Notes: generated from the letters alone by a model not told the origin. Shown: positions 1,108 to 19,465, numbered from the stretch's first letter. The stretch: 64,000 bases of DNA from Prochlorococcus sp. AG-388-D03 (GCA_003279875.1 QCGN01000001.1:1-64000); one strand, 5' to 3'. A program made the numbers and translations.

Positions 1108-1262
1108 CTTGCTCTGTTCACACCCCATTTACACATTACAACTTTCTTAAAAATAACTGCTATGAACGAGATTAATTACTGGCTAATGAAAAGCGATCAG
1201 GTTTGCTATCAGAAGGTATCTAAATCGTTCTTGATTTCTTATTCAAACTTTATTCAAACTTT
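1108..1262 (+). repeat. EVE-start repeat copy A (11-bp DR pair 1116-1137, ATG 1162, MNEINYWLMKSDQ…, downstream DR pair 1241-1262)
   Basis: Matches promoter and 5' codons of the EVE gene at 19426; DR-to-ATG spacing identical (46 nt). Confidence 0.8.
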
Positions 1263-1267
1263 TAACG

Positions 1268-1315
1268 ATTGACAGTAGATATAAAATAAAGGGCTATTAG
1301 CGCCTTTTTAGTATG
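1268..1315 (+). repeat. 48-bp element copy 1 (ATTGACAGTAGATATAAAATAAAGGGCTATTAGCGCCTTTTTAGTATG)
   Basis: Alignment to the other copies in 1.2-6.8 kb. Confidence 0.85.
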
Positions 1316-1708
1316 AAGTTAAAAAATATTTTAAAAACTACTGGGGGTCTTCATATTCTATTGGGATTATTAATTATTTTCCTACTAATTTTTTCTGTGG
1401 AAACAATTGCAGGCAATGCTTCAAGTGAAACATTGCTTCTTGTCAGAGGGACTGCAGATGTTGTAGCAGCTAGTAATTTAGGGATAGGTTTTTTATTGAT
1501 TATTAGCAGTTCTATCAAAGATAAAAAATCTTTAAAAAAACTTTTATCAGTTGAACTAGCTTTAATGGCTTGTTTGTTAGCAGTAGCTTTATTCAATACT
1601 TTTAATGCTGGAACAATAGTTGATGGAGGTCCTCCAACTCCTTTTTGGGTTGTTTTGATAGTTAACCCTATACTATGTATATATGGATTAGTTAAAAGGA
1701 AAAAATGA
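1313..1708 (+). CDS. Small membrane protein, about 4 TM
   Basis: ORF with hydrophobic segments; start abuts 48-bp element. Confidence 0.75.
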   Translation: MKLKNILKTTGGLHILLGLLIIFLLIFSVETIAGNASSETLLLVRGTADVVAASNLGIGFLLIISSSIKDKKSLKKLLSVELALMACLLAVALFNTFNAGTIVDGGPPTPFWVVLIVNPILCIYGLVKRKK

Positions 1709-1947
1709 AACGCTTAATTTTATTTATCCCTTTTATTTTTTTAATGTGGGGTTGTGTCAATACCTCGAATAAATTAGATATTATTGATATTTCCAACACT
1801 CAAAAGCAGAGAGACGTTTGTCTAGATTGGTATGGCTACAGAATTGATACCAAGAAAGCAATTAATGATTTAAATCTTAAAATTGAAACCGAATCAGAAT
1901 TAATGACTTATTGTGATTTCTTCAAGAATGTAGCTGATACAAAATAG
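1705..1947 (+). CDS. Putative lipoprotein (MKRLILFIPFIFLMWGC)
   Basis: Lipobox-like WGC; ATGA overlap with the upstream gene. Confidence 0.7.
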   Translation: MKRLILFIPFIFLMWGCVNTSNKLDIIDISNTQKQRDVCLDWYGYRIDTKKAINDLNLKIETESELMTYCDFFKNVADTK

Positions 1948-2115
1948 TAAAATTTCATTCTAACTATTACTTGGATATCAAGGAATTGTAACTTTACCCA
2001 AATTTTTATTAGTTGATATTTGATAAATAAAAACTCAAAAAGTTAAATTTAGTACTGACAAATATTTTAAAAATAAATACTATGAGTCTAAATAATTTTC
2101 TAGGAATTCAAATTC

Positions 2116-2544
2116 ATGATTAAGAATTTTTTCATAGCAATAGCCTTTGCTTTGATGCTCATCAACCCAAGCATTTCTATAGCTGCAGAATCTCCTGTAG
2201 ATGTACAAGAAGTATTTGTAGGTTCTGAAACTATGGATGGCGATGCTCTTAAATATCCAAAAGGAAAAGCTGAAATAAGATTACAAAGAGTCGAGTTAGC
2301 TGAAGGAGGGGTAGTACCACTTCACTCTCATCCAATTCCATTATTAGGCAATGTTGAGCAAGGTACGATAGTTGTCAAAAGAGAAGGAATGGGAGATCTT
2401 ACCTATACAGCAGGGGATACTTTTATAGTTGGTCCAAAGACACCAAAACATACAATGGGTAATGCAAAAACTGATAACGCAATAGTTTGGTTCGCAGCAA
2501 TTGGAGCAAAAGATGTTCCAATTTTAATTCCTGCAGAAGGATAA
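2116..2544 (+). CDS. Secreted cupin-domain protein
   Basis: Signal peptide; cupin motif (PLHSHPIP…G…GDTF…PKHTMGN). Confidence 0.75.
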   Translation: MIKNFFIAIAFALMLINPSISIAAESPVDVQEVFVGSETMDGDALKYPKGKAEIRLQRVELAEGGVVPLHSHPIPLLGNVEQGTIVVKREGMGDLTYTAGDTFIVGPKTPKHTMGNAKTDNAIVWFAAIGAKDVPILIPAEG

Positions 2545-2571
2545 TTTTTAACTTTAAATCAATTATTTTTG

Positions 2572-2617
2572 ATTGACACTCAAACTACAATCAGGAGAAA
2601 TTAGATCCTTTTTTATG
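2572..2617 (+). repeat. 48-bp element copy 2 (divergent)
   Basis: GATTGACACTC…TTAGATCCTTTTTTATG. Confidence 0.6.
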
Positions 2618-2923
2618 ACTGCTCAAAATTTTATGCATGTTGTTCGATTTAAATTAAAGTCAAATTGTGTAGATAAGTATTTTGAAGTAATAGATAAAAC
2701 AAGTTTTGAGGGGATGACTCAAAGATATATAGCTAAAACTGGAAATTATAATTACTGTTTTGTTGGGATCTGGAACAGTGCCGAAGCTATTGCAGCTCAG
2801 AGACCCGCTATGATTGCTCACCTTGATGAGGTTAGAGGATTTATGGAAGAGTTGTCTCCTGAACTTGGAGTTACTGATCCTGTTTCAGGAAAAATTGTTT
2901 CTAAAGTTGGTTATCATGATTGA
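2615..2923 (+). CDS. Hypothetical monooxygenase-like (ABM-fold-like) protein; start moved from track 2573 to ATG 2615
   Basis: ORF; ATG immediately follows the 48-bp element. Confidence 0.65.
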   Translation: MTAQNFMHVVRFKLKSNCVDKYFEVIDKTSFEGMTQRYIAKTGNYNYCFVGIWNSAEAIAAQRPAMIAHLDEVRGFMEELSPELGVTDPVSGKIVSKVGYHD

Positions 2924-2964
2924 CAGTCGATCTAAAATAAATAGTAATTAGTTCCTTTTTTATG
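2919..2964 (+). repeat. 48-bp element copy 3
   Basis: ATTGACAGTCGATCTAAAATAAATAGTAATTAGTTCCTTTTTTATG; its TGA is the stop codon of the upstream ORF. Confidence 0.85.
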
Positions 2965-3141
2965 GCTAAATTTTCTTCTCAAGAAATAGAAAGTCAATAC
3001 AATTTAATCAAAACGCTTTTATCTGATCCTGAAAAGTATAAGGATGCTATAGATGCAATTAAAAAAGATATTTCTTATATGCCACAGGAACTAAAGAAAA
3101 AACTTGAAGAGGAAAATATTACTTTTCTTGCTGATGATTAA
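2962..3141 (+). CDS. 59-aa hypothetical protein (MAKFSSQEIESQYNLIKTLL…)
   Basis: ATG supplied by element copy 3, TAA at 3139-3141; below track cutoff. Confidence 0.65.
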   Translation: MAKFSSQEIESQYNLIKTLLSDPEKYKDAIDAIKKDISYMPQELKKKLEEENITFLADD

Positions 3142-3324
3142 TTAACCACCAGTACAGAAACGAACAGAATCAGCTGTTGAGGAGACAGTAGCTTTCATTT
3201 CTTCAACACATTCATTAAAGAAATTTGATTCTTTTTTTAAGGCACAAAAGCTTAGAGCTATAGCTACTAATGCAACAGCAGAAACAACTGTTGAACCTAG
3301 TTGAATAACTCCATAAACAAGCAT
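3142..3324 (-). CDS. Small TM protein, 60 aa
   Basis: ORF with one hydrophobic segment. Confidence 0.6.
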   Translation of the reverse strand: MLVYGVIQLGSTVVSAVALVAIALSFCALKKESNFFNECVEEMKATVSSTADSVRFCTGG

Positions 3325-3386
3325 TGCTTTATTCCTTCTAAAATCATTTTTTATACCTCTTTTTTTATCAGCTATTTTTTAATCCA

Positions 3387-3476
3387 ATGAAAATCTTTCT
3401 GCTCCCGGCAATTATTTTTATAGGTGTTCTTTATGGTTGTGGGTTGTTCTGGCTACTATGGCATAAAATAATTTAA
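3387..3476 (+). CDS. 29-aa TM peptide (MKIFLLPAIIFIGVLYGCGLFWLLWHKII)
   Basis: Short ORF, strongly hydrophobic. Confidence 0.4.
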   Translation: MKIFLLPAIIFIGVLYGCGLFWLLWHKII

Positions 3477-3493
3477 TACTGCGGTTAATTATT

Positions 3494-3540
3494 ATTGACA
3501 GTCGATCTAGAATAATGGGCAATTAGCTCCTTTTTCTATG
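3494..3540 (+). repeat. 48-bp element copy 4
   Basis: ATTGACAGTCGATCTAGAATAATGGGCAATTAGCTCCTTTTTCTATG. Confidence 0.9.
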
Positions 3541-3843
3541 TCTTGTTCAGTCACCTCCGTGTTTACTTTTAAAATTGAAAGTACTTTCGATGAATGGGCT
3601 GCAATATTTGATAGTGCGGAAGCAGATAAAAGACATTCAGAATTTGATATTAAACCGCTTTTTAGAGGAGTAAGCAAGGAAGATCCTCAAAAAATAATTG
3701 TTATTCATCAAGCTCCAGAAGGTAATGTTCAAAAGTTTGTGGAAGCGAATGGTGACTGGATGGCAACTCATAGAGTTGACTTATCAACAATGGAGGAATC
3801 TTCTTGGACTCCTTCATTAACAATGGGCGATTGCTGTGATTAA
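3538..3843 (+). CDS. DUF3764-like hypothetical protein
   Basis: ORF; family recognised from sequence style only. Confidence 0.65.
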   Translation: MSCSVTSVFTFKIESTFDEWAAIFDSAEADKRHSEFDIKPLFRGVSKEDPQKIIVIHQAPEGNVQKFVEANGDWMATHRVDLSTMEESSWTPSLTMGDCCD

Positions 3844-3846
3844 CAA

Positions 3847-3996
3847 ATGAAACTAAAACTACTCCCACCACTATTCAAACTATTCAACAAACGTACTTTC
3901 CTCTCATCACTAAATCAAAACTCGTGCCCTGTTTTAGATGCTAAAGAGATAAAAAAGCAAGAACAAAATGAAGCTATTAAAAAGTTATATCCATAA
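3847..3996 (+). CDS. 49-aa hypothetical peptide (MKLKLLPPLFKLFNKRTF…)
   Basis: Short ORF; N-terminus resembles MKLKFFP of 477. Confidence 0.4.
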   Translation: MKLKLLPPLFKLFNKRTFLSSLNQNSCPVLDAKEIKKQEQNEAIKKLYP

Positions 3997-4050
3997 AATT
4001 TAAACAGAAATATCTTAGGTCATATTAAAAGCTGTAGAACGATCGTATGT

Positions 4051-4140
4051 CCCCAATACCACCAATCACTTTCCTAAATAAGAACTTTGATGGATAATAA
4101 ACATATAAATCAGATTCTGATTCTAGCAAAATTCTAGCAA
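4051..4140 (+). repeat. EVE-start repeat copy F, 5' half only (palindrome 4070-4084 and DR pair 4119-4140)
   Basis: CCCCAATACCACC…TTTCCTAAATAAGAA…GATTCTAGCAAAATTCTAGCAA, near-identical to copies B and C. Confidence 0.8.
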
Positions 4141-4192
4141 AGCTAATAAATATAAAGACATTTATTGAGGTAAAGATTTAGGATAATTTGTG

Positions 4193-4237
4193 ATTGACAC
4201 TCGATTTAAAATAGGTGTAATTATTAATAGAGATATG
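4193..4237 (+). repeat. 48-bp element copy 5 (hairpin part degraded)
   Basis: ATTGACACTCGATTTAAAATAGG…ATG. Confidence 0.65.
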
Positions 4238-4444
4238 AAATTTTTAGTTTTACTTACTTTAATTTTTAGTACTTTTTCCACTGTATTTGCGGAAGGTCAT
4301 AAGAAGTATAAAGAAGAAGAGTTTGATAAAATTAAACTTATGAAAATTGAATATTTAAATAAAAAAATTAATTGCGTAAAAGCCTCTAATAATTTTAAGG
4401 AAATGAAAAAATGCTGGAAAAAAAGAAAAAAGAAGATGATGTAA
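4235..4444 (+). CDS. Small secreted Lys-rich protein
   Basis: MKFLVLLTLIFSTFSTVFA signal peptide; ATG abuts element copy 5. Confidence 0.65.
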   Translation: MKFLVLLTLIFSTFSTVFAEGHKKYKEEEFDKIKLMKIEYLNKKINCVKASNNFKEMKKCWKKRKKKMM

Positions 4445-4454
4445 TCTATTGAAG

Positions 4455-4500
4455 ATTGACAATCGATCATCAAAAAGGGGTAATTAGCTCCTTTTTTAAT
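4455..4500 (+). repeat. 48-bp element copy 6 without a downstream ORF
   Basis: ATTGACAATCGATCATCAAAAAGGGGTAATTAGCTCCTTTTTT. Confidence 0.8.
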
Positions 4501-4873
4501 AGCAAAGTACGCTATCCGCTTTAATTGATTCTTCAACTAGAACATCTGGCATAACAAACTCTGCAGTGTATCCATCTAGAAGCTTCTCATCGTAACCCCT
4601 AGTTTTAGCAGACATTCCTGAGACATATATGGTAATTTTTGAATTCTTTAAATTTTGAAGATGTTCGTATAAATCTCCAGTCCCTTGACCAACTATTTCA
4701 CCAGCTTTTTTGCAATTTAATATTTGTACTCCGTCTCCTGCTAGAAAAAGTGTTACTTTATGATCGTTTTTTTCTGCAGTAAGGGCAGCCAATAAACCTA
4801 AAGTTATTTTATTTTTGGATTCTAAACCGCTGTAAATATGTACTAACACTGCATTGTCGGTAATGATAGACAT
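4496..4873 (-). CDS. DsrE/DsrF-like family protein
   Basis: ORF; ALTAEKNDHKVTLFLAGDGV motif style. Confidence 0.7.
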   Translation of the reverse strand: MSIITDNAVLVHIYSGLESKNKITLGLLAALTAEKNDHKVTLFLAGDGVQILNCKKAGEIVGQGTGDLYEHLQNLKNSKITIYVSGMSAKTRGYDEKLLDGYTAEFVMPDVLVEESIKADSVLCY

Positions 4874-4918
4874 TTAATCCTCCCTAAATTTTGTTTTTAT
4901 ATCCTAAATAAAATCTAT

Positions 4919-4940
4919 TTTCATTAGCTGTTTTTTTATG
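4919..4940 (+). repeat. Partial 48-bp element (3' half, TCATTAGCTGTTTTTTTATG) preceding truncated MKRLLLAPLSY*
   Basis: Resembles the ATTAGCTCCTTTTTTATG tail of the complete copies. Confidence 0.45.
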
Positions 4941-5171
4941 AAACGCTTACTACTTGCACCTCTTTCTTATTAGCAGATGGCTATTAAGTATTAAAAATAG
5001 CTCCAAAATATAGAAGTCTTCTTCCAACCTTTTTCCATAAATGATTGCGAATACTAGATTTATACACCTCGATTTTTTGCCAATTTTCTTGCTTTTTCCT
5101 TTTTTTTTCGTAAGTATGAGTATATAGGCTCTAATTTGCTCTAAAAAACTATCACATAGGGGTTGACGATT

Positions 5172-5438
5172 ATGGAAATTCCAGAAGAAATGTTGAAAGA
5201 AATCAGAGAGAGTGGATACGATCAAGAGCTTGTATATAACTACATAAGAGAACTATTAAACAGCGATAAACAAATTAAAGAAAATAACAATCTAGAACTT
5301 ATAGACAATTACTTATTAGACAAAGATCTACAAGAACCTGCTGCTGAGATACTGATTGCAGCAGAGCTTTTAGACAACTACTTATTAGATAAAAGATTTA
5401 TGAGAGAACTTGAAAATGAAGAATATGATGCTGCTTAA
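5172..5438 (+). CDS. Hypothetical acidic protein with internal duplication (IDNYLLDKDLQE / LDNYLLDKRFMRE)
   Basis: ORF. Confidence 0.6.
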   Translation: MEIPEEMLKEIRESGYDQELVYNYIRELLNSDKQIKENNNLELIDNYLLDKDLQEPAAEILIAAELLDNYLLDKRFMRELENEEYDAA

Positions 5439-5509
5439 TTAGATAAAGTACCTATTTTTTCCTATTTATTTAAAGGTTATTCTTTTGAGCAAATAACAGG
5501 ATTAAAACA

Positions 5510-5632
5510 ATGATGAAACTTGCAATCATTTTTTTACCAATTTTATTTGCAGTTATTTGGGCTGCTTTTATAGGTTTAAGAATTAATAAAGTAGAAACTA
5601 GAGATGGAAAAAGAAAATTAATTAATTACTAA
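5510..5632 (+). CDS. 40-aa single-TM peptide
   Basis: MMKLAIIFLPILFAVIWAAFIGLRINKVETRDGKRKLINY*. Confidence 0.5.
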   Translation: MMKLAIIFLPILFAVIWAAFIGLRINKVETRDGKRKLINY

Positions 5633-5635
5633 TTG

Positions 5636-5683
5636 ATTGACAGTCGATCTAACATAAGGGGCATTAGCTCCTTTTTTTTAATG
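5636..5683 (+). repeat. 48-bp element copy 7
   Basis: ATTGACAGTCGATCTAACATAAGGGGCATTAGCTCCTTTTTTTTAATG. Confidence 0.9.
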
Positions 5684-6061
5684 TCAAATACTAAAGCCAT
5701 AGAAGATTTAATTAATGGTTATGCAACCAGTGAAGATTCTTCTTTTCTAATACCAAACGTAACTGAGGATTTTTTAGCTGTAAGACCAAGTGGGAATCCA
5801 ATATCTGCTAAGGGATTAGTGGGAATGTTTGATAGTAAAGACTTAGTTGCAGAATCATCAGAACTAATCAAAACCCACAAAATTGAAATTTACGGTGAGA
5901 TAGCTTACGCAGTTTTTACTTTAAATGAAATCTTCAGTTATAAAGGAAATCAAAATAAAGATCTTTCAACTTATACTTGCATTTTTAAAAATGTAAATGG
6001 TACTTGGAAGTATTCTTGGATGCAAAGATCTCAAGGCACTACTGATATGACCACATGGTAA
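5681..6061 (+). CDS. SnoaL/NTF2-like (DUF4440-type) protein
   Basis: ORF; start set to ATG after the element. Confidence 0.65.
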   Translation: MSNTKAIEDLINGYATSEDSSFLIPNVTEDFLAVRPSGNPISAKGLVGMFDSKDLVAESSELIKTHKIEIYGEIAYAVFTLNEIFSYKGNQNKDLSTYTCIFKNVNGTWKYSWMQRSQGTTDMTTW

Positions 6062-6083
6062 TAAATGAAACGCTTAATATTTT

Positions 6084-6281
6084 CTCTTTCCTAAATAGGT
6101 ACTTTGATGGATAATAAACATATAAATAGAATTCTGATTCTAGCAAAATTCTAGCAGATAAATTCCTCCAAATCCCTTGATATGACTGAAGAAAAGTTTT
6201 GGCTAATGAACCATGTACCAGTAGTCATAGCAATGGATTTCAAAAACCGTTAAAAAAATGTTCACGATATGTTCACGATTT
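6084..6281 (+). repeat. EVE-start repeat copy B (palindrome 6087, DR pair 6136-6157, ATG 6182, downstream DR pair 6260-6281)
   Basis: MTEEKFWLMN…; near-identical to copy C upstream of the ATG. Confidence 0.85.
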
Positions 6282-6562
6282 AATGGCTTCACCTTCGAGT
6301 TGGGAATTCTATAAAGAAGAACAAACTAAGATTTTATGGGTCCATATTTGTACCCAAGATTTAACGGGCGTAGCTATTTCAATAAATAAATGGCGGAAGA
6401 CAAGGTATCCAGAGTTCAAAATGAGAATAGTTTCTAAAAAAGAATTCGAACATATAAAAATACAAGAGCAGCAACAGCAGCAATAAAATTAATCTTTGGT
6501 AAATTTTGATGCTGAATATTTTGTTTATGCAGCTAATATAATTTCAGTATATTAATGAATAA

Positions 6563-6718
6563 ATGAATTCCGCATTTGCAAAAGTCTCAAATTTGAAAGT
6601 CAATAGGGGTTCTAAAATAGCCATTACTCTCGCATCATCAACTTTCTTCTTATACGCATTAGGTCAAGCACCAATTTTTAAAAATATTCTTTCAGGTGCT
6701 TTCTCTTGTTCTGGCTAA
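6563..6718 (+). CDS. 51-aa hypothetical TM protein
   Basis: MNSAFAKVSNLKVNRGSKIAITLASSTFFLYALGQAPIFKNILSGAFSCSG*. Confidence 0.5.
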   Translation: MNSAFAKVSNLKVNRGSKIAITLASSTFFLYALGQAPIFKNILSGAFSCSG

Positions 6719-6765
6719 AAAAATAATTGTTTACAAGAGATGCTGAGAATCTAGAATAAATAGTG

Positions 6766-6812
6766 ATTGACAGTCGATCTAAACTAAGGGGCAATTAGCC
6801 CTTTTTTTTATG
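6766..6812 (+). repeat. 48-bp element copy 8 followed only by a 16-codon ORF
   Basis: ATTGACAGTCGATCTAAACTAAGGGGCAATTAGCCCTTTTTTTTATG. Confidence 0.9.
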
Positions 6813-6831
6813 AACACACTCATCACAGATA

Positions 6832-6870
6832 GAAAAAAAAAAGCTCGCTTATATCCCTAAAAGCAAGCTC
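6832..6870 (-). terminator. Hairpin terminator for the minus-strand gene at 6896
   Basis: A-run then AGCTCGCTT…AAGCAAGCT inverted repeat (one G-U); on the minus strand the stem is followed by a T-run. Confidence 0.6.
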
Positions 6871-6895
6871 TCATGACGGTTTAATTTTTAAATAT

Positions 6896-7111
6896 TTATG
6901 CTGGCAATCTACAATCAAGTTCTATTATTCCTTCATCCATAAGACGACCAATTTTTAAAACTAGTGCCATATCTAATCTTGAGAAATCTGATTGGTTATT
7001 CGTAATCCAATCCAATTCAGATAAAGTTATTACTCCTGAAGTATTAACTTTGAGGAAGAGTAAACCTAAATTCATTTTGCTATTAATTTGTTGCTTTTTT
7101 TCCTTTGGCAA
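6896..7111 (-). CDS. Hypothetical protein (MNLGLLFLKVNTSGVITLSELDW…); start codon uncertain
   Basis: ORF. Confidence 0.6.
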   Translation of the reverse strand: MPKEKKQQINSKMNLGLLFLKVNTSGVITLSELDWITNNQSDFSRLDMALVLKIGRLMDEGIIELDCRLPA

Positions 7112-7172
7112 TCATCAGTACTGGTACTAAAAGATATGCAAAAAATGAGATTAAAAAAATGTCTAAATTCAT
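7083..7172 (-). CDS. 29-aa TM peptide (MNLDIFLISFFAYLLVPVLMIAKGKKATN)
   Basis: Short ORF overlapping 6896..7111 through an A7 run. Confidence 0.5.
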   Translation of the reverse strand: MNLDIFLISFFAYLLVPVLMIAKGKKATN

Positions 7173-7174
7173 TT

Positions 7175-7303
7175 TTAAAAAATCCCAGGTATGATCCAGC
7201 CAAATAAGCCGTAATTTACTACTAATGCAAAGAAGCCCATCATTGCCATTCTTCCATTAGTTCTCTCTGCATTTTGCCAGTAGCTAGGTTTTGAATTTTC
7301 CAT
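7175..7303 (-). CDS. hli: High-light-inducible protein, 42 aa
   Basis: MENSKPSYWQNAERTNGRMAMMGFFALVVNYGLFGWIIPGIF: NGRxAMxGF and IIPG motifs. Confidence 0.9.
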   Translation of the reverse strand: MENSKPSYWQNAERTNGRMAMMGFFALVVNYGLFGWIIPGIF

Positions 7304-7334
7304 TTTTTTTGTTTTGGTTATTTGAAATTTGTTT

Positions 7335-7595
7335 TTAAACGAAACCGGGAATAATCTGACCTGTAGTTAGATATGCACCAATTGCAGCTATAAGTCCGAT
7401 CATTGCAAATCTACCGTTAAGAGTTTCTGCAACAACTTTTTCTTTTTCGATTGCTTTTGTTTTTGTGTTTGTGTTTGTCATTTGATTTTTGTTTGAATAA
7501 ATTAAATTTTCTTCTTGAAATTGTTTAGTTAAATAAGCCACAATCAAAGCAGTTAAAGATACTATGAGAATCAAAAAATCTACTAAAGGACTCAT
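7335..7595 (-). CDS. hli: High-light-inducible protein with N-terminal extra TM segment (alternative start 7481 gives a 48-aa Hli)
   Basis: LNGRFAMIGLIAAIGAYLTTGQIIPGFV; frame open upstream to ATG 7595. Confidence 0.85.
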   Translation of the reverse strand: MSPLVDFLILIVSLTALIVAYLTKQFQEENLIYSNKNQMTNTNTKTKAIEKEKVVAETLNGRFAMIGLIAAIGAYLTTGQIIPGFV

Positions 7596-7804
7596 TAAAA
7601 GATACCTGGAATGATTTGCCCAGTAGTTACGTATGCACCTAAGAGAGATACGAAACCAATCATTGCCCAACGACCGTTAATTTTCTCTGCATTTTGAGGA
7701 TAACCGTCATATGACACTGATTCGTCAATATATGGACGAGTTTCTGATGGAAACATATTCTGCCTTCCGCCAGATTCAGTTGTTGTATATGAAGAGTTTG
7801 ACAT
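7595..7804 (-). CDS. hli: High-light-inducible protein
   Basis: INGRWAMIGFVSLLGAYVTTGQIIPGIF; start corrected to MSNSSYTT…. Confidence 0.9.
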   Translation of the reverse strand: MSNSSYTTTESGGRQNMFPSETRPYIDESVSYDGYPQNAEKINGRWAMIGFVSLLGAYVTTGQIIPGIF

Positions 7805-7911
7805 TAGAACCAACCAGGGATAATTTGACCAGTTGTTACGTATGCTCCAACAGCTGCTACGAAGCCGAGCATTGCCGCCCAACCGTTAAATCTTTCTGCT
7901 TCAGGTGTCAT
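7804..7911 (-). CDS. hli: High-light-inducible protein, 35 aa
   Basis: MTPEAERFNGWAAMLGFVAAVGAYVTTGQIIPGWF*. Confidence 0.85.
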   Translation of the reverse strand: MTPEAERFNGWAAMLGFVAAVGAYVTTGQIIPGWF

Positions 7912-8249
7912 TTTTATAAAGAGTAATTTATGTAAATTAATATAACATTAATATTAATAAACGTAAAGAAATTGATCTAAATTGCTATTTACCTAAGATA
8001 ATTGATACATTTCTGTAGCATAAACGTATATTTTTAGCTAATTCACTGTTGGTATTGTTAATAAGGTGTTTCTTTTAGCATTAACTTAAATTTAATTCTT
8101 TTGAAGATAGTGGGCTGGTCATTATTTTGAATTTGAGAGTCTTTTTTGATCCTTAATCCGTACAATTTTGTTCCTCTAACCGCACACATAAAACTTGAAA
8201 TTAACTATTCAAATGAATTAGAACATAACTGTAGTCAATAGGTAAGTCT

Positions 8250-8402
8250 TATGGCACTAAACGACACATTTACCATCCAAGAGATGGACATGGATAAAAA
8301 AGACCTTTCATACGATATAAAGGCAAAAGAACTCGAAGCTTATTGGAATAATGAATGCAAAGAGCACCCTACTAAAAACCATTGCAAAGTTTATTGTGAT
8401 TA
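8250..8402 (+). CDS. 50-aa CP12-like mini-peptide
   Basis: MALNDTFTIQEMDMDKKDLSYDIKAKELEAYWNNECKEHPTKNHCKVYCD*; C-x3-P-x4-C-x-V-Y pattern. Confidence 0.55.
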
Positions 8403-8488
8403 ATACTTAATCTTTTAAGTATTCTTATGCTTGATTTTTATATATCACCCTTACTAGAGCATAGACAGATAGAAAGGAGGACAAGCAA

Positions 8489-8590
8489 ATGACTAATTTA
8501 GGAATAGAAATTCTATTTTGGATAATTTTAATTTCTTATCTGGGATTAAGAATATCTCAAACTCGGAATGGCTTTAAACAGCAATTTTAA
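8489..8590 (+). CDS. 33-aa single-TM peptide
   Basis: AAAGGAGG site then MTNLGIEILFWIILISYLGLRISQTRNGFKQQF*. Confidence 0.5.
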   Translation: MTNLGIEILFWIILISYLGLRISQTRNGFKQQF

Positions 8591-8603
8591 TTAGGAGGGC
8601 AAA

Positions 8604-8750
8604 ATGAAACTACAAACTCAATTCACAGTTCCAAACAAAGAGCTGCGAGATCTTGATTATGTCAACAAAGTAGAAGTTTTAGAAGAAACTTTTAAAAGAG
8701 AATGTCTAGATTATCCAACTAAAGAAGATTGTTTAGTTTGTTGCAACTGA
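8604..8750 (+). CDS. 48-aa CP12-like mini-peptide, paralog of 257..403
   Basis: MKLQTQFTVPNKELRDLDYVNKVEVLEETFKRECLDYPTKEDCLVCCN*. Confidence 0.6.
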   Translation: MKLQTQFTVPNKELRDLDYVNKVEVLEETFKRECLDYPTKEDCLVCCN

Positions 8751-8823
8751 CTATTCATTAATTGTTTTTCATATTTTATAAATTCTAAAAATATTCAAAA
8801 TTTATTAATTGAGAGGTTGAACA

Positions 8824-11528: not shown

Positions 11529-12563
11529 ATGACAGGTAATGAAAAACAAAATACAAATGACCCTGCATATAAATATATAAAAAATTCTTCATCTGAATAT
11601 GTAAATACAAATACTAATTGGAAGGAAAATTTAAATCCTGAAGAAAAAGAATTTTATAACTCACACCCTCTCCCTTTTTTAGAAAGTAAAGCCGAGAACT
11701 ATAGCTTATTTCTTAAAAGGTATGAAAAATCGAAAAAGGAATCATCAGTCTCGATTCCTTCTAGTCAAAAAATGAAGCCTAGCTTTAATAAACATACTTG
11801 TCCCAAATGCGGTTCGTCAGTTAATCCCGATGAAAAATTTTGTGGTGAGTGTGGTTTTAATTTAGAAAATTTAGTTTCTAAAGAAAATAATATGGAAGTC
11901 AAAAAAGAACAGGTCTCAATAAAAGAAGAAACTGCTCCTTTAGTTAAGGTAAAAAACAAAAAAGAGGATAAACCTTTAAAAATTAAAACTAAAATGAATA
12001 ATCTAATTTGCTCAGAATGCGGCTTTCCTTTAAATGATGGAGAGGATGTTTTTTGCCCAGAGTGCGGATGCAAAATTATTTATCCAACCGATGAAGTAAA
12101 TACAAAAATAATTGAAGTTAAGAATTCCACTAAAGATAATGAATTTATAAAAGTTACTGAAACTGAAGATTCAATTCAAGAAGAGAGCTTAGTTTCTGAA
12201 AATGAAGATTCAATTCAAGAAGAGAGCTTAGTTTCTGAAAATGAAGATTCAATTCAAGAAGAGAGCTTAGTTTCTAATAAAGAAATAAAAGAAAAACCAA
12301 AAAGTAAAAATAATCTTCCTATTGATATATTGATAGATTTAAAATCTTTTTTTGAAGATAAATTAATAAATGAAATTGAATATAATCAATTAAGAAAATT
12401 AGCTCTAAAAATAGCAACAGATCCAAAATCAAAAGGTGATCTATCAAAAATTAAATCAATTTCTAGAGAGAAATTATCTGAACTTAGAAATCTTTTTAAT
12501 GAACAATTAATTGATAAGGATGAATATGATGATTTAAGAAAAAATCTTATAGAAATAGAATGA
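11529..12563 (+). CDS. Protein with two zinc ribbons and two C-terminal SHOCT-like segments
   Basis: CPKCGSSVNPDEKFCGECG, CSECGFPLNDGEDVFCPECG; ILIDLKSFFEDKLINEIEYNQLRK / KLSELRNLFNEQLIDKDEYDDLRK. Confidence 0.75.
   Translation: MTGNEKQNTNDPAYKYIKNSSSEYVNTNTNWKENLNPEEKEFYNSHPLPFLESKAENYSLFLKRYEKSKKESSVSIPSSQKMKPSFNKHTCPKCGSSVNPDEKFCGECGFNLENLVSKENNMEVKKEQVSIKEETAPLVKVKNKKEDKPLKIKTKMNNLICSECGFPLNDGEDVFCPECGCKIIYPTDEVNTKIIEVKNSTKDNEFIKVTETEDSIQEESLVSENEDSIQEESLVSENEDSIQEESLVSNKEIKEKPKSKNNLPIDILIDLKSFFEDKLINEIEYNQLRKLALKIATDPKSKGDLSKIKSISREKLSELRNLFNEQLIDKDEYDDLRKNLIEIE
12165..12281 (+). repeat. Three tandem 39-bp coding repeats (EDSIQEESLVSEN)x3
   Basis: Two identical units and a third diverging in its last few bases. 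Confidence 0.95.
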
Positions 12564-13504
12564 CAGAAAGAATAATTCTTGAAGAATTAAGTCCAAAGGA
12601 ATATGAACATCCACTAGATAGAAAAGCTATAAATACGCTTGAGGCGATTCCTGGGGTTAGAGCATTAGTTGCAAAAATCTGGGAGAAATTCCTACAGAAG
12701 TTTTTAGTTCTTGAATATATGGGATCAAGTCTCAGAATTACTGATGAGAATTATCCTGATATATATAAGCTTCTTGAAGAGGCTTGTTTAATTTTAGATG
12801 TCAAAGAAATACCTCCTTTGTACTTGATAAATGACCCAACAATGCAGGCTTTGGCTATTGGAGCGAGCAAACCTTTTATAGGTATAACTTATGCTCTTGT
12901 TGAAAGATTAGATAGCGATGAATTGCTTTTTGTGATTGCGCATGAACTTGGTCATATAAAAAGTGGTCATGTTCTTTATTACAACATTGCTATCTATTTA
13001 AAGCCAATTGTCGAAGTAGCTAGTCAACTGAGTTTAGGGATAGCTGGTTTAGTTGGTGGAGGTTTTCAAATAGCTTTAAAATATTGGCAAAGGATGTCTG
13101 AATTCACTTCTGATCGAGCAGGCTTACTTGTTTGCCAAGATCCAAAAGTTTGTATTAGAGCAATGATTAAGATTGCGGGACTTCCTGTAGATAGAGTAGG
13201 AATAGAAGCTTTTGAGAAATCATTCTTACAACAGGCTAAAGAATTTGAAGACTTTGATTACGGTGCAATGAATAAATTTGTAAAAGTTATGAGCACCTAC
13301 AATAACAGTCATCCTTGGACAGTCTTACGAGCTTCAGAATTTATAAAGTGGGAAGGTTCAGAAGAATATAAATTGATCCTTAAAGGAGAAAGAAATTTTG
13401 ACATAGAGGAAAATTTAGAAGATTTCCTAGCATGTACTGTTTGCGGAAATAGGTTGGGTGATAGTGATAAATTCTGTGGCAAATGCGGAGCCAAAATTGA
13501 TTAG
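12560..13504 (+). CDS. M48-family metallopeptidase with C-terminal zinc ribbon
   Basis: HELGH motif; CTVCGNRLGDSDKFCGKCG; ATGA overlap with the upstream ORF. Confidence 0.85.
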   Translation: MTERIILEELSPKEYEHPLDRKAINTLEAIPGVRALVAKIWEKFLQKFLVLEYMGSSLRITDENYPDIYKLLEEACLILDVKEIPPLYLINDPTMQALAIGASKPFIGITYALVERLDSDELLFVIAHELGHIKSGHVLYYNIAIYLKPIVEVASQLSLGIAGLVGGGFQIALKYWQRMSEFTSDRAGLLVCQDPKVCIRAMIKIAGLPVDRVGIEAFEKSFLQQAKEFEDFDYGAMNKFVKVMSTYNNSHPWTVLRASEFIKWEGSEEYKLILKGERNFDIEENLEDFLACTVCGNRLGDSDKFCGKCGAKID

Positions 13505-13526
13505 AGCTCTTTAATATTAAAGCCAT

Positions 13527-13763
13527 ATGTTTTGTACTAAATGTGGTCACAAAAATAAAATCAATGCTAATTTTTGCAGTAAATGTGGAAGTAAATTAAA
13601 TATTATTATTGAACATGATCTAACGCCTAAGAAAGAAGTTAAGAAAAGTATGTCTTTAGAAAAAATTTTTCAAGTTATATCAGTTCCTTTGGGAATAGTG
13701 TTATTCGCTGTAGCAAGAATATCACTCAGAACTCTTTTTAAATACTGGTTTAATAACTCTTAA
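13527..13763 (+). CDS. Small zinc-ribbon membrane protein
   Basis: MFCTKCGHKNKINANFCSKCGSKLN plus C-terminal hydrophobic segment. Confidence 0.75.
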   Translation: MFCTKCGHKNKINANFCSKCGSKLNIIIEHDLTPKKEVKKSMSLEKIFQVISVPLGIVLFAVARISLRTLFKYWFNNS

Positions 13764-13799
13764 ATTATAAAAGTATTTAATTTAAATCTCTTTCAAAAT

Positions 13800-14411
13800 T
13801 CAATTTTTAAATCCACATGATCTACAAAAAATATCATTCATATTCATTGCTGCTCCGCAGTTTTTGCAGAACTTATTTTTAGAGAATTCTGGAGATGTAT
13901 CGCTTTCTGAAATACCATTTTCTCGTAAACGTTTTTTAGCAAATTCTCTAGCATTATTTATTGCAAGCTTTGCTAAAAAAGGTGTGAAAATAAACCAGCA
14001 AATAATCGCAGCTTCACCAAATAATAAACTTGAGATAATTCTTTCTATAAAAACATATCCAAACACAGTAATTGTTCTTCTTGAGAAAGCATAGAAAAGA
14101 CCTACGAAAGGAATCATATGAGCAAATGCATAACCCCAACCATCATCTTGCTGCCTTAATTTATAAGCCTTAATTAAACCTGGTTTGATACTTCCATAAG
14201 TTTTGCTTGATTTGCTTTTATAGCTGTAGTTTTTCTGTTGTGAAGTTTTTTTATTCTCTTTAACTTGATTATTAACTGTTTCTTTTGATTCGATTTTATT
14301 TCCATAAAAATCAACGGAACTATCCGTTACCACTTTCCAGCCACATTTTGGACAATTTTTAGCTTTATCAGAAATTTTCTGACCACACTCTAAACAATTT
14401 ATTAAAGCCAT
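13800..14411 (-). CDS. Membrane protein with zinc ribbons at both termini
   Basis: CLECGQKISDKAKNCPKCG and CKNCGAAMNMNDIFCRSCG. Confidence 0.75.
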   Translation of the reverse strand: MALINCLECGQKISDKAKNCPKCGWKVVTDSSVDFYGNKIESKETVNNQVKENKKTSQQKNYSYKSKSSKTYGSIKPGLIKAYKLRQQDDGWGYAFAHMIPFVGLFYAFSRRTITVFGYVFIERIISSLLFGEAAIICWFIFTPFLAKLAINNAREFAKKRLRENGISESDTSPEFSKNKFCKNCGAAMNMNDIFCRSCGFKN

Positions 14412-14498
14412 TTATTAAAGAATAAAAAGTCTTTCATAGCTTTATAGCAATATTGGTAATAGCTTTCCATTATAAATTTAAGGTTGTATATTTTAAAT

Positions 14499-14795
14499 AT
14501 GATTGAGAAAAAATTAATTTCGGGAAAAATTGTTCTAATATCATTTCTTTGTACAGCCTTAATTGAAATATTTAACACAATTTTAATAATAAATTTACCT
14601 GAAGAAGCTACCATTCCTTTTTCCATTTTAATACCGATAACAGTTCTTGAATATTCTTTTCTATTAATCGCTTTATTCTTTTCTATTAAGGGTCTTTTTT
14701 ATAATGATAATAAATCTAAAAAGTTAAATTTCATCTATTTAATAGCGAGTATAGTCTGGTTAAGCGAAAAAGTTTTTGAGACCCTTAATTGGTAA
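14499..14795 (+). CDS. Hypothetical membrane protein
   Basis: ORF with hydrophobic segments; start adjusted. Confidence 0.55.
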   Translation: MIEKKLISGKIVLISFLCTALIEIFNTILIINLPEEATIPFSILIPITVLEYSFLLIALFFSIKGLFYNDNKSKKLNFIYLIASIVWLSEKVFETLNW

Positions 14796-14803
14796 TAAGA
14801 TCA

Positions 14804-15244
14804 ATGAAATGCAAAAAATGTGGATTTGAAATTAAAGAAAATAAGAAATTTTGTACAAATTGTGGATGGGAAATTGAATTCTCAACATCAGAAGAATCTA
14901 AAAAGTTACCAACTAAACCAAACGATGGTAATTTATTCGACAATTTAATCACACAACCAGTCTTAATATTATTTGTCTTATTAATAAAACTATTTTTAGA
15001 TATTGAAGGATTTCTTCTTTTTAAAAAAGATATTTATTTTGTCGCAAATGAATTTTTAATTCTACTTACAATTTTACAAGTCATAGCTTTGTTTTCTGTA
15101 ATTATTATTTCGATTAAGAAGTTATATATTGAAAAATCTTTTAGTAAATTTGCAAATTATTTATACTTAGCTTTAAGTTTTGCTTTATTATCAACGACCA
15201 TTGAATCATTAATATTTTTTCAAAATATCCAATACGATCTCTAA
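14804..15244 (+). CDS. Zinc-ribbon membrane protein, N-terminus paralogous to 9961..11466
   Basis: MKCKKCGFEIKENKKFCTNCGWEIE. Confidence 0.7.
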   Translation: MKCKKCGFEIKENKKFCTNCGWEIEFSTSEESKKLPTKPNDGNLFDNLITQPVLILFVLLIKLFLDIEGFLLFKKDIYFVANEFLILLTILQVIALFSVIIISIKKLYIEKSFSKFANYLYLALSFALLSTTIESLIFFQNIQYDL

Positions 15245-15291
15245 GGAAGTTAATTCTAATTAGGCATGAAGAGAAAAAATTAATCAAACTT

Positions 15292-15930
15292 TTAGTCTTT
15301 AACTCCTTGCACTACTTCCTTATAATTTCCAATTGAATTTAACCAGAAACCTATTATTTTTATAATCCTTAAGACCCAAGCCCAAAATGGAGGGATAGCT
15401 ATTCCAGTACTCACTGCTGATCTATAACGTACTGTAATTTCAGAGGAAGCAGGATCAGTATTAGCAAGCATTAATATGATTATAAAAGTGCTTAAAGTTG
15501 CATTTATAACTAAATTACCCTGAGGCTTTATACGGAAGATCTTACAAATAAGACCAATTATGATGAGGTTAAGATAAGAAGTCCCAATAGCTCCTGCAGG
15601 AAGAACAAACAAGAAGCTAAAACTGAAAATATTGTAATTAAAGAAAGAAGATACGCTCTGAATAATTATTCCAGTTAATATTGTTGATCCAATCCATAGA
15701 AAAGAAATAGGAGCTTTAGGCGTTTCATTATTACCCCCTCTAATTTGCGTAGAGCTATTCTCATATGTTTTTGAAACTGAATTTTTTGATGGGAAACTTC
15801 TACTAAGAGCTAAATCAGGCTCATTTTCTCTCTTGTCATTCAAACCTGAATTAGATTTAATTAAAGTTCCACATTTTCCACAAAATTTTGCATCTACTTT
15901 AAGTTTTGACCCACATTTAGTACAAAACAT
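15292..15930 (-). CDS. Zinc-ribbon membrane protein
   Basis: MFCTKCGSKLKVDAKFCGKCGTLIK plus TM segments. Confidence 0.75.
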   Translation of the reverse strand: MFCTKCGSKLKVDAKFCGKCGTLIKSNSGLNDKRENEPDLALSRSFPSKNSVSKTYENSSTQIRGGNNETPKAPISFLWIGSTILTGIIIQSVSSFFNYNIFSFSFLFVLPAGAIGTSYLNLIIIGLICKIFRIKPQGNLVINATLSTFIIILMLANTDPASSEITVRYRSAVSTGIAIPPFWAWVLRIIKIIGFWLNSIGNYKEVVQGVKD

Positions 15931-16016
15931 TTCTCTTTAAAGTATTGACTCAATAATAACTAGTTAAGAACCCCCTAAACTCATAATATTAACTTCTTTT
16001 TCTAAGAGCTAATAAA

Positions 16017-16216
16017 CCCCATACCGCACATCACTTTCCTAAATAGAAACTTTCTTCGACTAATATTGTTCGATAAACTAAATAAAATGCTTTGGATTTG
16101 GCTGATTTCTGAAAAAGTTAACAAAATGCCATACCAGCACCATACCAGCAGCACTATTTCCCGCAAATTATAGACTATGACTGAAATCAACTACTGGCTA
16201 ATGAAGAGCGAACTGG
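16017..16216 (+). repeat. EVE-start repeat copy D (palindrome 16035-16049, DR pair 16129-16150, ATG 16177)
   Basis: MTEINYWLMKSELDAKKFS*. Confidence 0.85.
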
Positions 16217-16271
16217 ATGCTAAAAAGTTTTCTTAAATCTAAAATAAGCCGCAAGTTCTTTTTTAGACTCT

Positions 16272-16595
16272 CTAGTTATTTAATTTATAGTTCGTCTTAA
16301 TAGTTTTTATTATTGAATCTTGTGGTTCTTCACTTGGATAACAATTAATAATTCTATATTTTCCGCCTTTCTTATCAGTCTCTACAATTGTAAATTCCAC
16401 ATACTTACCTATTCCATCTATTAAATCTTTAACTTCTGTATTAATTATCTCTTCATTTTCATTTTCGATAATACGAGATTTCCCACCGCAACTAATTAAT
16501 GCATTTTCTTTGGTAACTAAAAAATCTTTATCATTACTGCATGAGGACAGAAAAGATAAAGAAAATACTATTAAAAGAAGTTTTTTCATAGTCAA
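16272..16595 (-). CDS. Putative lipoprotein
   Basis: MTMKKLLLIVFSLSFLSSCSN lipobox. Confidence 0.65.
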   Translation of the reverse strand: MTMKKLLLIVFSLSFLSSCSNDKDFLVTKENALISCGGKSRIIENENEEIINTEVKDLIDGIGKYVEFTIVETDKKGGKYRIINCYPSEEPQDSIIKTIKTNYKLNN

Positions 16596-16756
16596 AAGTT
16601 TTTATACATAATTAACTTATAAGGCAATTTTTTTAAGGAGAAGTTAAACATTTTTTTTGATTAAAATAATTAAAAAAATTTGAATGTCAATTAATTATTA
16701 AAAAAATTTTAGCTCCGTATCTTTATTTACTAATGCTAATCAAAATTTATACATTA

Positions 16757-16778
16757 CTTAAATTCAATTTAACCCTAG
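16757..16778 (+). promoter_or_regulatory. Pho-box-like direct repeat CTTAAATTCAA-TTTAACCCTAG
   Basis: Two PyTTAA-type units at 11-bp period upstream of phoX-like gene. Confidence 0.55.
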
Positions 16779-16813
16779 AGAACAATTTTTAAATTAGTTA
16801 TCACTTTTATGTT

Positions 16814-18622
16814 GTGGCTGATTTTAATGATGTTGTTTCAAGAAGAAAATTTTTGCAAGGTTCATTTGCTTTAGGCTCTGGAGCATTTATAGCTGCGACA
16901 ATTGGTCCTGCGAAAGCAACTAGTTTCTCAAGTGGTTTTAATGGTATAAGTTTTAATCCTGTGCCAGCTAATGGTAAAGATACAATTACTCTTCCAAAAG
17001 GATTTAGTTGGCATAAAGTTGCATCATGGGGTGATCCATTATGGAGCGGAGTTGATGATTTTGATCAAATAACACGAGGAACAGGAGAATCTCAGGAAGG
17101 GTCTTTTGGGGATAATAATGATGGCATGAGCCTCTTTGATATTGAGGGGAAATCAATTCTTGCAGTCAATAATGAATATTGCAATAGGAAAATAATTTAT
17201 GGAAATAGAGCTAGCGGATTACCAGAAACATCTGATGACGTACGCAAAGGAATTGCTTCGCATGGAGTTTCTATTTTTGAAATAGAAAAGAAATTAGGAA
17301 AATGGAAAATAAAAAAAGATTCACTTTACAACAGGAAAATTACAGGTGATACCAAAATAGCTTTAGATGGACCAGCAGCTGGGTTCTATTTAATGAAAAC
17401 TGATGAGGATCTAACCGGAAAAGTTGCAAAAGGTACTTTCAATAATTGTGGGAACGGCAGAACTCCATGGGGAACTTATCTAGCTTGCGAGGAAAATTTT
17501 CATGGTTACTTTTCTTCACCTTCCGTTCCATCCGCCTCTATTCCGCCAGAACAAGCAAGATATGGTCTAAAGACAAAAGACAAAGGCTATAACTGGGTTA
17601 TGAATCAAGATAGATTTGATTTAGTTAAAAATCCAAACGAAGTTAATAGGCACGGATACATAACTGAAATTGACCCTTCAAAGCCACAATCAATGCCAAG
17701 GAAACATACTGCAATGGGTAGGTTTAAGCATGAGAATTGTGAAGTATCTATTTCTAAAAATGGACAAGTTGTTGCTTATATGGGAGATGATGAACGAGGT
17801 GAGCATCTATATAAGTTCGTATCCAAAGGAAAATATAAAAAAGGTGCTTCTTCTAACTACGATTTATTAACTGAGGGAGAGTTATTTGTTGCTGTTTTTA
17901 ATGATGATGGAACAGGTAAATGGATAAATTTAAAAGAATCTGGAATGAGTGAGCCTGAAATCGCAATTTTCACAAGACTCGCAGCTACTAAAGTTGGAGC
18001 TACAACTATGGATAGACCTGAGTGGGTCGCTGTTAATCCCAAAAAAGTAGAAGCATACTGTGCCTTAACCAATAACAAAAATAGAGGAGTTAAAGATAAT
18101 CAACCAATTAACGCAGTAAATCCAAGAGAAAATAATCCTTACGGACAGATAGTTAGATGGACACCTAGCAATTCAGATCATGCATCAGTAGATTTCAAAT
18201 GGGATCTTTTTGTAATGGCTGGAAATCCTGAAACAGCAGAAGGATTATACAAAGGTTCAGAAAATATAAACAAAGATAATATGTTTAATTCGCCTGATGG
18301 GATCGCCTTTGACTCTAAAGGCAATTTGTGGATTCAGACAGATGGTAAATATAGTAATTCTGGAAAATTTGCAGGAATGGGAAATAATCAAATGCTTTGT
18401 GCAAATCCAAGGACAGGAGAAATTAGTAGATTTCTTGTTGGTCCCAAGGAATGTGAAATTACTGGCATAACTTGGAGTTCTGATAAGAAGACAATGTTTG
18501 TAGGTGTACAACATCCTGGAGAAAAAAATCCAGATAGTTGTCATTTCCCCGATGGAGGTAATAGCGTTCCAAGGTCTACAGTTATTGCCATCACAAGAAA
18601 TAATGGAAGAGCAATTGGATAA
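16814..18622 (+). CDS. phoX: PhoX-type (DUF839) alkaline phosphatase, Tat-exported
   Basis: SRRKFLQG twin-arginine signal; GNNDGMSLF, WGTYLACEENFHGYF, GRFKHENCEV, SPDGIAFDSKGNLWIQTDG motifs. Confidence 0.8.
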   Translation: MADFNDVVSRRKFLQGSFALGSGAFIAATIGPAKATSFSSGFNGISFNPVPANGKDTITLPKGFSWHKVASWGDPLWSGVDDFDQITRGTGESQEGSFGDNNDGMSLFDIEGKSILAVNNEYCNRKIIYGNRASGLPETSDDVRKGIASHGVSIFEIEKKLGKWKIKKDSLYNRKITGDTKIALDGPAAGFYLMKTDEDLTGKVAKGTFNNCGNGRTPWGTYLACEENFHGYFSSPSVPSASIPPEQARYGLKTKDKGYNWVMNQDRFDLVKNPNEVNRHGYITEIDPSKPQSMPRKHTAMGRFKHENCEVSISKNGQVVAYMGDDERGEHLYKFVSKGKYKKGASSNYDLLTEGELFVAVFNDDGTGKWINLKESGMSEPEIAIFTRLAATKVGATTMDRPEWVAVNPKKVEAYCALTNNKNRGVKDNQPINAVNPRENNPYGQIVRWTPSNSDHASVDFKWDLFVMAGNPETAEGLYKGSENINKDNMFNSPDGIAFDSKGNLWIQTDGKYSNSGKFAGMGNNQMLCANPRTGEISRFLVGPKECEITGITWSSDKKTMFVGVQHPGEKNPDSCHFPDGGNSVPRSTVIAITRNNGRAIG

Positions 18623-18653
18623 TGTATAAAAACAAAACTATTAGGCAGAAAAC

Positions 18654-18923
18654 ATGAATATATTTGGTGTTGGAATTCCAGAAATTGCTGTAATTTTTGT
18701 TTTAGCTCTTTTAATATTTGGACCTAAAAAGCTACCAGAACTAGGTCGTTCAATTGGAAAAACATTGAAAAGCTTGCAACAAGCTTCTGGAGAGTTTCAA
18801 AAAGAAATTGAGAAAGCAGTTAAAGAAACTGACGAAGAAGTAATAAATGATGGTTCTGAAGTTTATTCAGACAATAGTTTAATAACTGCCAATATTGATG
18901 AAGATGAAGATGATGACGATTAA
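18654..18923 (+). CDS. tatA: Sec-independent translocase TatA/E-type protein
   Basis: MNIFGVGIPEIAVIFVLALLIFGPKKLPELGRSIG. Confidence 0.9.
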   Translation: MNIFGVGIPEIAVIFVLALLIFGPKKLPELGRSIGKTLKSLQQASGEFQKEIEKAVKETDEEVINDGSEVYSDNSLITANIDEDEDDDD

Positions 18924-18960
18924 AGTCAATTAAATCGTTTTTTTAAGATATATTAGCAAT

Positions 18961-19116
18961 CTAAAGAAAATAGTTTTCATCATTTTCCTCAATACTTGTT
19001 TCGACCCATTCAGGCGGATAGTCGCCAAGTTTGACATATTGATAAAGCTTATCTAGATCTGGATCGTAATAAGTGTCATTGATTTTTGGATCTTTGATTA
19101 CTTTACTTGGATGCAT
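18961..19116 (-). CDS. 51-aa hypothetical protein
   Basis: MHPSKVIKDPKINDTYYDPDLDKLYQYVKLGDYPPEWVETSIEENDENYFL*. Confidence 0.55.
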   Translation of the reverse strand: MHPSKVIKDPKINDTYYDPDLDKLYQYVKLGDYPPEWVETSIEENDENYFL

Positions 19117-19302
19117 AAATAAAATCTGATTTATAAAAGTGAATTTTTAAAAATCATTTATTGCTTTAAATGGTTTGTCTTCAATATTTAAGGCGTAAAA
19201 ATAAAGAAGACTTTTAAAAATTAAGTTGCCAAGATTAAGGAAAAATTAATTTAAAAATAAATTTTTTTTAAACAACTTTAATTGATCAAAACTGTTTTAA
19301 CC

Positions 19303-19465
19303 CCCCTTACCCATTATCACTTTCCTAAAAAGGAAATTTGATGGATAATGAACCTAGAATTGAGCGTTTTCAGTATTCTGTTCACACACCGTTCACACAT
19401 TGTAATTTTCTTATAACTAATTGATATGACTGAACCTAACTACTGGCTAATGAAAAGTGAACCAG
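19303..19465 (+). repeat. EVE-start repeat copy E: promoter and 5' codons of the intact EVE gene (palindrome 19321-19336, DR pair 19380-19401)
   Basis: Parent sequence for the truncated copies. Confidence 0.85.

Follow-up and report, generated by a model that had tools for sequence, protein, structure and literature searches.

Small mobile elements appear to insert serially into the first codons of the EVE gene in Prochlorococcus

Introduction

Prochlorococcus is the most abundant photosynthetic microbe of the ocean, and its hypervariable islands hold phosphate, light-stress and other niche genes. To our knowledge, the mechanism by which these islands are exchanged is settled only for elements linked to tRNA genes. 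Here, we analyze a window formed by the initial 64 kb of contig C1 (QCGN01000001.1:1-64000) from the 52-contig genome of Prochlorococcus sp. AG-388-D03, in which the start of a gene encoding an EVE-domain protein recurs several times before the intact gene is reached. Why should the beginning of one protein-coding gene divide an island into segments? Very probably, the segments belong to a family of integrative elements that has its own divergent tyrosine recombinase, uses the 5′ end of EVE as its bacterial attachment site (attB) and accretes there, most members now being devoid of an integrase. In effect, dozens of small mobile elements appear to insert serially into the first codons of EVE and to produce a reshuffled string of cassettes. 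For one island, the exact junctions are given, and with them the integration site, the sequences recognized and the enzyme probably responsible.

EVE starts as putative attachment sites

The EVE starts of the window are found at ATG 1162, 6182, 9784, 16177 and 19426, all on the + strand, and only the last belongs to an intact gene (PF01878, E=2.8e-53). An earlier, sequence-only reading of this DNA had placed all five correctly. It had also described the repeated unit as a promoter with the first codons of the gene; the first codons are indeed part of what is repeated, but the element common to all copies is a short core, and the arms flanking it vary from copy to copy. This core is the exact 11-mer TGGCTAATGAA (codons W-L-M-K), which occurs five times in the window, once per EVE start, always on the + strand and always before 19.5 kb, against a chance expectation of 0.09.

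The arms are pairs of repeats that have an exact 11-bp period and lie at set distances from the core, for instance ATTCTAGCAAA with ATTCTAGCAG upstream and TATTCGAACCT with CATTCGAACTT downstream. Upstream, the window holds doubled copies of TTCTAGCA (at 6137 and 9739), ATACCAGC (16129) and TTCACACA (19380); downstream, those of TTCAAACT (1241), TTCACGAT (6258) and TTCGAAC (9872). Such repeats look like the arm sites of an integrase, and from this organization each shortened EVE start in the window is most readily taken as the junction of an attachment (att) site.

Junction 1 (1117-1263, + strand, as are all the others) comprises a degenerate F-class upstream arm (1117-1137), the ATG at 1162, the core (1180-1190) and a B-class downstream pair (1241-1263). 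Junction 3 (6083-6280) begins with an upstream block at 6083, followed by an A-class pair (6137-6157), the ATG at 6182, the core (6200-6210) and a G-class pair (6258-6280). The arrangement is the same in junction 4 (9685-9893), with its upstream block at 9685, A-class pair (9739-9760), ATG at 9784, core (9802-9812) and C-class pair (9872-9893). In junction 5 (16031-16205), an upstream block at 16031 and an E-class pair (16129-16150) precede the ATG at 16177 and the core (16195-16205), and no downstream pair was seen there. Finally, the terminal junction, which resembles an attR, extends together with the intact EVE gene from 19317 to 19893, with an upstream block at 19317, an F-class pair (19380-19401), the ATG at 19426, the core (19444-19454) and the end of the open reading frame (ORF) at 19893.

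The sequence-only reading had treated 1162-6182 as a single module. That interval contains a further junction, the second in order (4051-4139), where ATTCTAGCAAAATTCTAGCA (4120-4139) links an upstream arm region (from 4066) to an A-class downstream arm, the core and EVE start having been deleted. The fusion runs through this 20-bp repeat, which is common to both arms, and a complete counterpart of the downstream arm is found at L059:3870 (EVE-oriented coordinates). As the window begins at the first base of the contig, the island may extend past it.

Arrays across the genus

The EVE-start repeat was matched in 43 of the 79 genomes searched, and all 43 belong to one genus. The EVE gene itself had a match in 102 of 121 genomes of that genus and, at the level of the family, is present in 134 of 151. 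Around EVE, approximately 100 loci were read (about 101 for the core counts, in which up to one mismatch was allowed), and many show the same directional arrays, terminating at an intact EVE gene. Of the core copies counted, 241 share the strand of EVE and 25 lie on the opposite one. With a pair defined by a period of 11 bp and a match of at least 8/9, upstream pairs accompany 55% and downstream pairs 60% of the EVE-strand cores, compared with 0% at the 25 other-strand sites; among periods 6 to 17, none besides 11 was similarly enriched. The positions of the arms are nearly constant, mostly -67 to -63 upstream and mainly +47 to +49 or +59 downstream. At intact EVE genes, an upstream pair is present in 66/90 and a downstream pair in 0/90. 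The pattern is genuine and genus-wide, and stronger than the sequence-only reading had supposed.

Genomes with little or nothing in front of EVE provide a view of the neighborhood without an array. The gap between murD and EVE is 21-105 bp in five Synechococcus-like genomes and 0.7-3.4 kb in three; among the Prochlorococcus genomes compared, it widens to about 23-171 kb. In two Synechococcus-like loci (L225 and L226) where close pairs were read, murD lies directly 5′ of EVE and no arms were seen, and most of the low-light Prochlorococcus read show arm-like pairs 5′ of EVE. Separately, the idea that the Prochlorococcus island has murD as its left boundary was considered and rejected, given the core-looking genes in between; since such genes follow murD in high-light genomes, the murD-EVE interval is not all island.

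Matching ends and switches of homology

Were the modules integrated elements, each should have a downstream arm at its left end that pairs with the upstream arm at its right end, and no such pairing would be expected between the two arms at a single junction. The arm classes were set by the author after viewing the repeat words and before this comparison was made. The ends were of the same class in 40 of 85 modules, against 18.7 with shuffling (maximum 31 in 10,000 shuffles), whereas arms at a single junction shared a class in 16 of 83 cases, against 16.3 by chance. After the removal of near-duplicate modules, the ends matched in 30/73 (14.6 expected; maximum 27 in 20,000 shuffles), and without the commonest class, B, in 16/32 (5.9 expected).

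Homology between strains also changes at the core. For instance, seven genomes share a 2.62-kb module whose copies are about 99-99.8% identical over the whole distance between cores and lie beside five kinds of upstream arm and left neighbor; identity begins and ends at the core, after which comes the genome's own EVE gene or, in one locus (L127), another element. Junction pairs from different genomes were then compared over 60 bp on each side. Among pairs alike downstream, 265 of 385 were unlike upstream; among those alike upstream, 626 of 909 were unlike downstream. At five control offsets 200-700 bp into the modules, switches were found in 0 of 54-83 pairs, and at offsets -200 and -300 in 2/67 and 13/89. 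Breakpoints unrelated to the EVE starts were what the sequence-only reading had named as evidence against itself; the switches fall at the junctions, and the strain comparison bears out its proposal that insertions occurred serially at the 5′ end of a single protein-coding gene. The core is present as a direct repeat at both ends of the elements, and the target gene is rebuilt. Furthermore, the upstream arm class of intact genes is uncoupled from the tree of EVE gene bodies, on which it requires 53 changes, compared with 53.9 for shuffled labels.

These data bear on another explanation, in which the EVE-start copies are duplications of the 5′ region of the gene and modules are swapped by homologous recombination, so that a site-specific recombinase is unnecessary. 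The homology of the upstream blocks is available within arrays for such events, and the scar at 4120 is the expected product of recombination or slippage over the 20-bp arm repeat. The sequence-only reading had allowed for recombination of this kind, and in that minor scar it has a place. It does not fit the main exchange, because the homology left at a switch is only the common core of about 11-14 bp and the sequences on both sides are unrelated between strains. Nor does duplication predict the exact 11-bp spacing of the arms, the matching of module ends or, as described below, an integrase at the junction. As an account of the arrays, we regard it as very improbable.

A divergent recombinase beside the core

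Neither an integrase nor a remnant of one was found in the window, and a PF00589 search near EVE gave no integrase among the matches listed. As the recombinase scores below the PF00589 cut-off, it was found instead through the clustering of module ORFs, which revealed a family of about 522-533 aa immediately 3′ of the core and downstream arm. In homologues at L205-L213, all eight with upstream sequence begin directly after the core and arm. Hence, the earlier remark that no integrase is visible holds for the window but not for its relatives. Five elements could be traced to their right junction (L205, L206 and L207 of class E, L209 of class B and L210 of class D); each has arms of one class at both ends, with the EVE gene as the next intact junction. 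The integrase of L210 is split by a frameshift. In a search of the genus, strong homologues occurred only in EVE arrays, as did most remnants; weak homologues lay elsewhere, and one remnant (G091:C14) could be assigned to neither setting.

One member of the family matches the integrase group PHROG_1 (E=3e-14), and the Box-II Arg and the Tyr are retained, features that place the protein of the relatives, as a predicted divergent member, among the tyrosine recombinases. Its N-terminal domain tracks the arm class. Identity in this domain is 85-90% between class-E members (catalytic part 86-88%) and 39-44% between classes E and B (catalytic part 74-77% for the closer members); two class-B proteins, L176 and L213, are 67% identical in the N-domain and 48% in the remainder.

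In the filtered list, 38 of the 42 modules with matching ends lack a known integrase, and the other four carry one. This scarcity suggests decay or mobilization in trans, and the data fit either. The modules hold several genes in both orientations; no conjugation or mobilization genes were recognized in the ORF lists of four integrase-bearing elements, a minority of whose ORFs were scanned.

As a separate observation, a conserved integrase-like gene, mostly with a frame of about 389 aa, is found in most genomes of the genus (G000:C36:6049, locus L001 in our set) and is a possible trans-acting recombinase.

The location of the EVE recombinase is also relevant to an integron-like explanation, in which an integrase stationed next to the array would add cassettes one-way at a single site. 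The arrays are directional, the cassettes are small, mostly without an integrase, and common to several strains, all of which would suit an integron. The integrase, however, lies inside the element at its left core and not on a fixed platform; what the sites have in common is a core flanked by arms within a protein gene, and the modules are multi-gene and in both orientations. We give this explanation almost no credence.

Alternatively, the elements could be tycheposons that use a protein gene in place of a tRNA. They come from the same genus, carry cargo and have a tyrosine recombinase. However, no significant resemblance was seen between the EVE recombinase and the three integrases found near tRNA-Ser genes (L197-L199; E of 0.06 at best), and a search for tRNA genes found none in the window, where the site of integration is the EVE start. 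This assignment, which we consider unlikely, is compatible with a dedicated EVE family and is a question of filing. An Rfam search of window positions 1-21000 gave no match.

A related system at pdhC

A comparable arrangement was found at a second protein gene (loci L193, L194 and L257-L259). At L193:7213 and L194:7106 (minus strand), integrases of 444 and 452 aa, the first 23% identical to the EVE recombinase over 430 residues (E=6e-15), lie behind a shortened gene start, ATGTCTCACGAA, with TTAGACAG repeats of 11-bp period. Judged by eye, ATGTCTCACGAA is the start of pdhC, which encodes the E2 component of pyruvate dehydrogenase. An intact pdhC follows 6.8 and 7.6 kb onward on the same strand, with matching TTAGACA repeats, and at these occupied sites its second codon is altered, upstream of the common part (ATGAGTCACGAA). 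The unoccupied genome (L257) has the native pdhC upstream region; in L194, that region is left at the far end. The pdhC loci offer an occupied-versus-empty comparison for the proposed mechanism, in which a distant relative of the EVE recombinase would act.

Proposed mechanism

From the above, we infer the following series of events. In the attP of an element, the core TGGCTAATGAA would be flanked on either side by an arm made of two 8-bp words spaced 11 bp apart. A crossover in the core, presumably catalyzed by the recombinase, would give a left end made of the old promoter and first codons, then the P′ arm and the integrase gene, and a right end made of the P arm and a new promoter region, followed by new first codons that lead into the EVE body. 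With its start rebuilt, the EVE gene would be kept intact, and the rebuilt site could be used again by a later element, leading to a head-to-tail pile-up in which older elements are displaced away from the gene. Several recombinase lineages would share one core and differ in arm words and N-terminal domains, and modules without an integrase would arise by decay or be cassettes moved in trans.

Some observations weigh against this account. The two ends disagree in class in about half of all modules, and in the window they agree in a single one; decay, arm exchange or junctions that escaped detection are therefore common. The Arg-I position of the recombinase is a Ser (SGMSPEE) in the three members aligned, at about 23% identity, and catalysis therefore needs proof. 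AlphaFold models of four integrases were poor (pLDDT 48.7); that of the N-domain alone was good (pLDDT 84), and a fold search of the PDB with it gave no decisive match. In addition, no left boundary of the island could be located, core-looking genes following murD in Prochlorococcus.

A wider proposal, toward which we lean slightly less than away, is that the EVE start is a public docking site for many competing, mostly integrase-less cassettes, whose movement in trans would depend on a small number of autonomous elements with arms of the same class. This would amount to an integron-like, arm-addressed exchange across Prochlorococcus, with a sister family acting likewise at pdhC and the host promoter and first codons swapped at each event.

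Cargo and other features of the window

The junctions delimit five modules, whose cargo agrees with the sequence-only reading as regards the zinc-ribbon proteins with an M48 peptidase, PhoX with TatA, and the Hli-like peptides. The first module (1191-4119) holds small ORFs, a cupin and 48-bp elements; the second (4140-6199) is the only one in the window whose two end arms agree in class (A at the scar and again at 6137). Hli-like peptides and others are found in the third (6211-9801), whose initial ~610 bp, counted from the core, can be aligned with other genomes in which the upstream arms differ. The fourth (9813-16194) contains the zinc-ribbon proteins and peptidase, and the fifth (16206-19443) PhoX (16814-18622) and TatA (18654-18923). 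This PhoX module has counterparts, between different neighbors, in L053 (genome G026; 98.0% identity over 3,056 bp) and in L095 (G135; 98.7% over 3,003 bp). The module has evidently moved recently, as its DNA is about 98% identical while the EVE proteins of the window and of the L053 genome share 79.6% identity.

The 48-bp elements (TTGACAGTCGATCTAAAATA...GGGGCAATTAGCTCCTTTTTTATG; window positions 1269, 2920, 3495, 4194, 5637 and 6767, and many other loci) are a repeat distinct from the EVE junctions. They often lie immediately 5′ of a small ORF, have a terminator-like hairpin and at times begin just past the downstream arm. A small-gene pair (MKLQTQFTVPNKE..., MKL.FFPTTIFR...) is duplicated at 257-995 and 8604-8952, the second copy being shortened. 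Toward the right end of class-E elements, and of some others, two further small genes with no assigned function are found repeatedly (L095:2122-2725, minus strand, and many EVE-proximal modules).

Viral contigs were searched with arm and junction patterns, a 48-bp-element pattern and the integrase. Three arm or junction patterns, the 48-bp pattern and the integrase had no match; one junction pattern matched a single contig, L093 (IMGVR_UViG_3300006334_000917). This contig is T4-like (UvsX, DnaB-like helicase, MazG), and its positions 1-1090, upstream of uvsX, hold the EVE core with a D-class arm, island cargo and 48-bp elements, making it a possible vehicle or an assembly artefact. Isolated phage records gave matches at chance level only. 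A literature search gave no account of an EVE attachment site; the main tycheposon paper may hold an earlier description.

Comparison with known systems

Integrative elements at the 5′ ends of protein genes are known, and what is unusual here is the diversity of arm classes and the genus-wide arrays. In att sites of the lambda type, a core lies between arm-type direct repeats and the integrase gene adjoins attP. EVE sites resemble them in the core, the arms and the adjacent integrase, but their arm words are class-specific around a constant core. Mobile integrons have a one-way cassette array shared between strains, with IntI, an attI platform and attC cassettes. EVE arrays are likewise one-way and shared; they differ in having a core and arms in a gene start and no fixed integrase platform that we could see, attC and IntI not having been specifically sought.

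The dusA-associated islands (Farrugia et al. 2015, PMC4482086) have a tyrosine recombinase family dedicated to the 5′ end of one conserved protein gene, diverse cargo with the integrase as the shared feature, and proteobacterial hosts. EVE elements share the dedicated recombinase, the protein-gene 5′ end and the varied cargo. They differ in their target, EVE instead of dusA, in the host group, and in their arrays, divergent arm classes and mostly integrase-less members. Tycheposons, according to PMC10872708, are described at 7 tRNA genes; they and the EVE elements are both Prochlorococcus cargo elements with tyrosine recombinases, the latter differing in their protein-gene site and in a recombinase unlike the three tRNA-Ser-linked ones compared here. 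Lastly, the accretion of integrative and conjugative elements (ICEs), integrative and mobilizable elements (IMEs) and cis-mobilizable elements, like the tandem arrays of SGI1 (PMC5704250, PMC2297512), involves a head-to-tail arrangement on one attachment site. Compared with these, EVE arrays show several arm specificities on one core, occur in many genomes of a genus and have no conjugation genes recognized in the listed ORFs; they share with them the head-to-tail order, the use of one site and integrase-less members that are possibly moved in trans.

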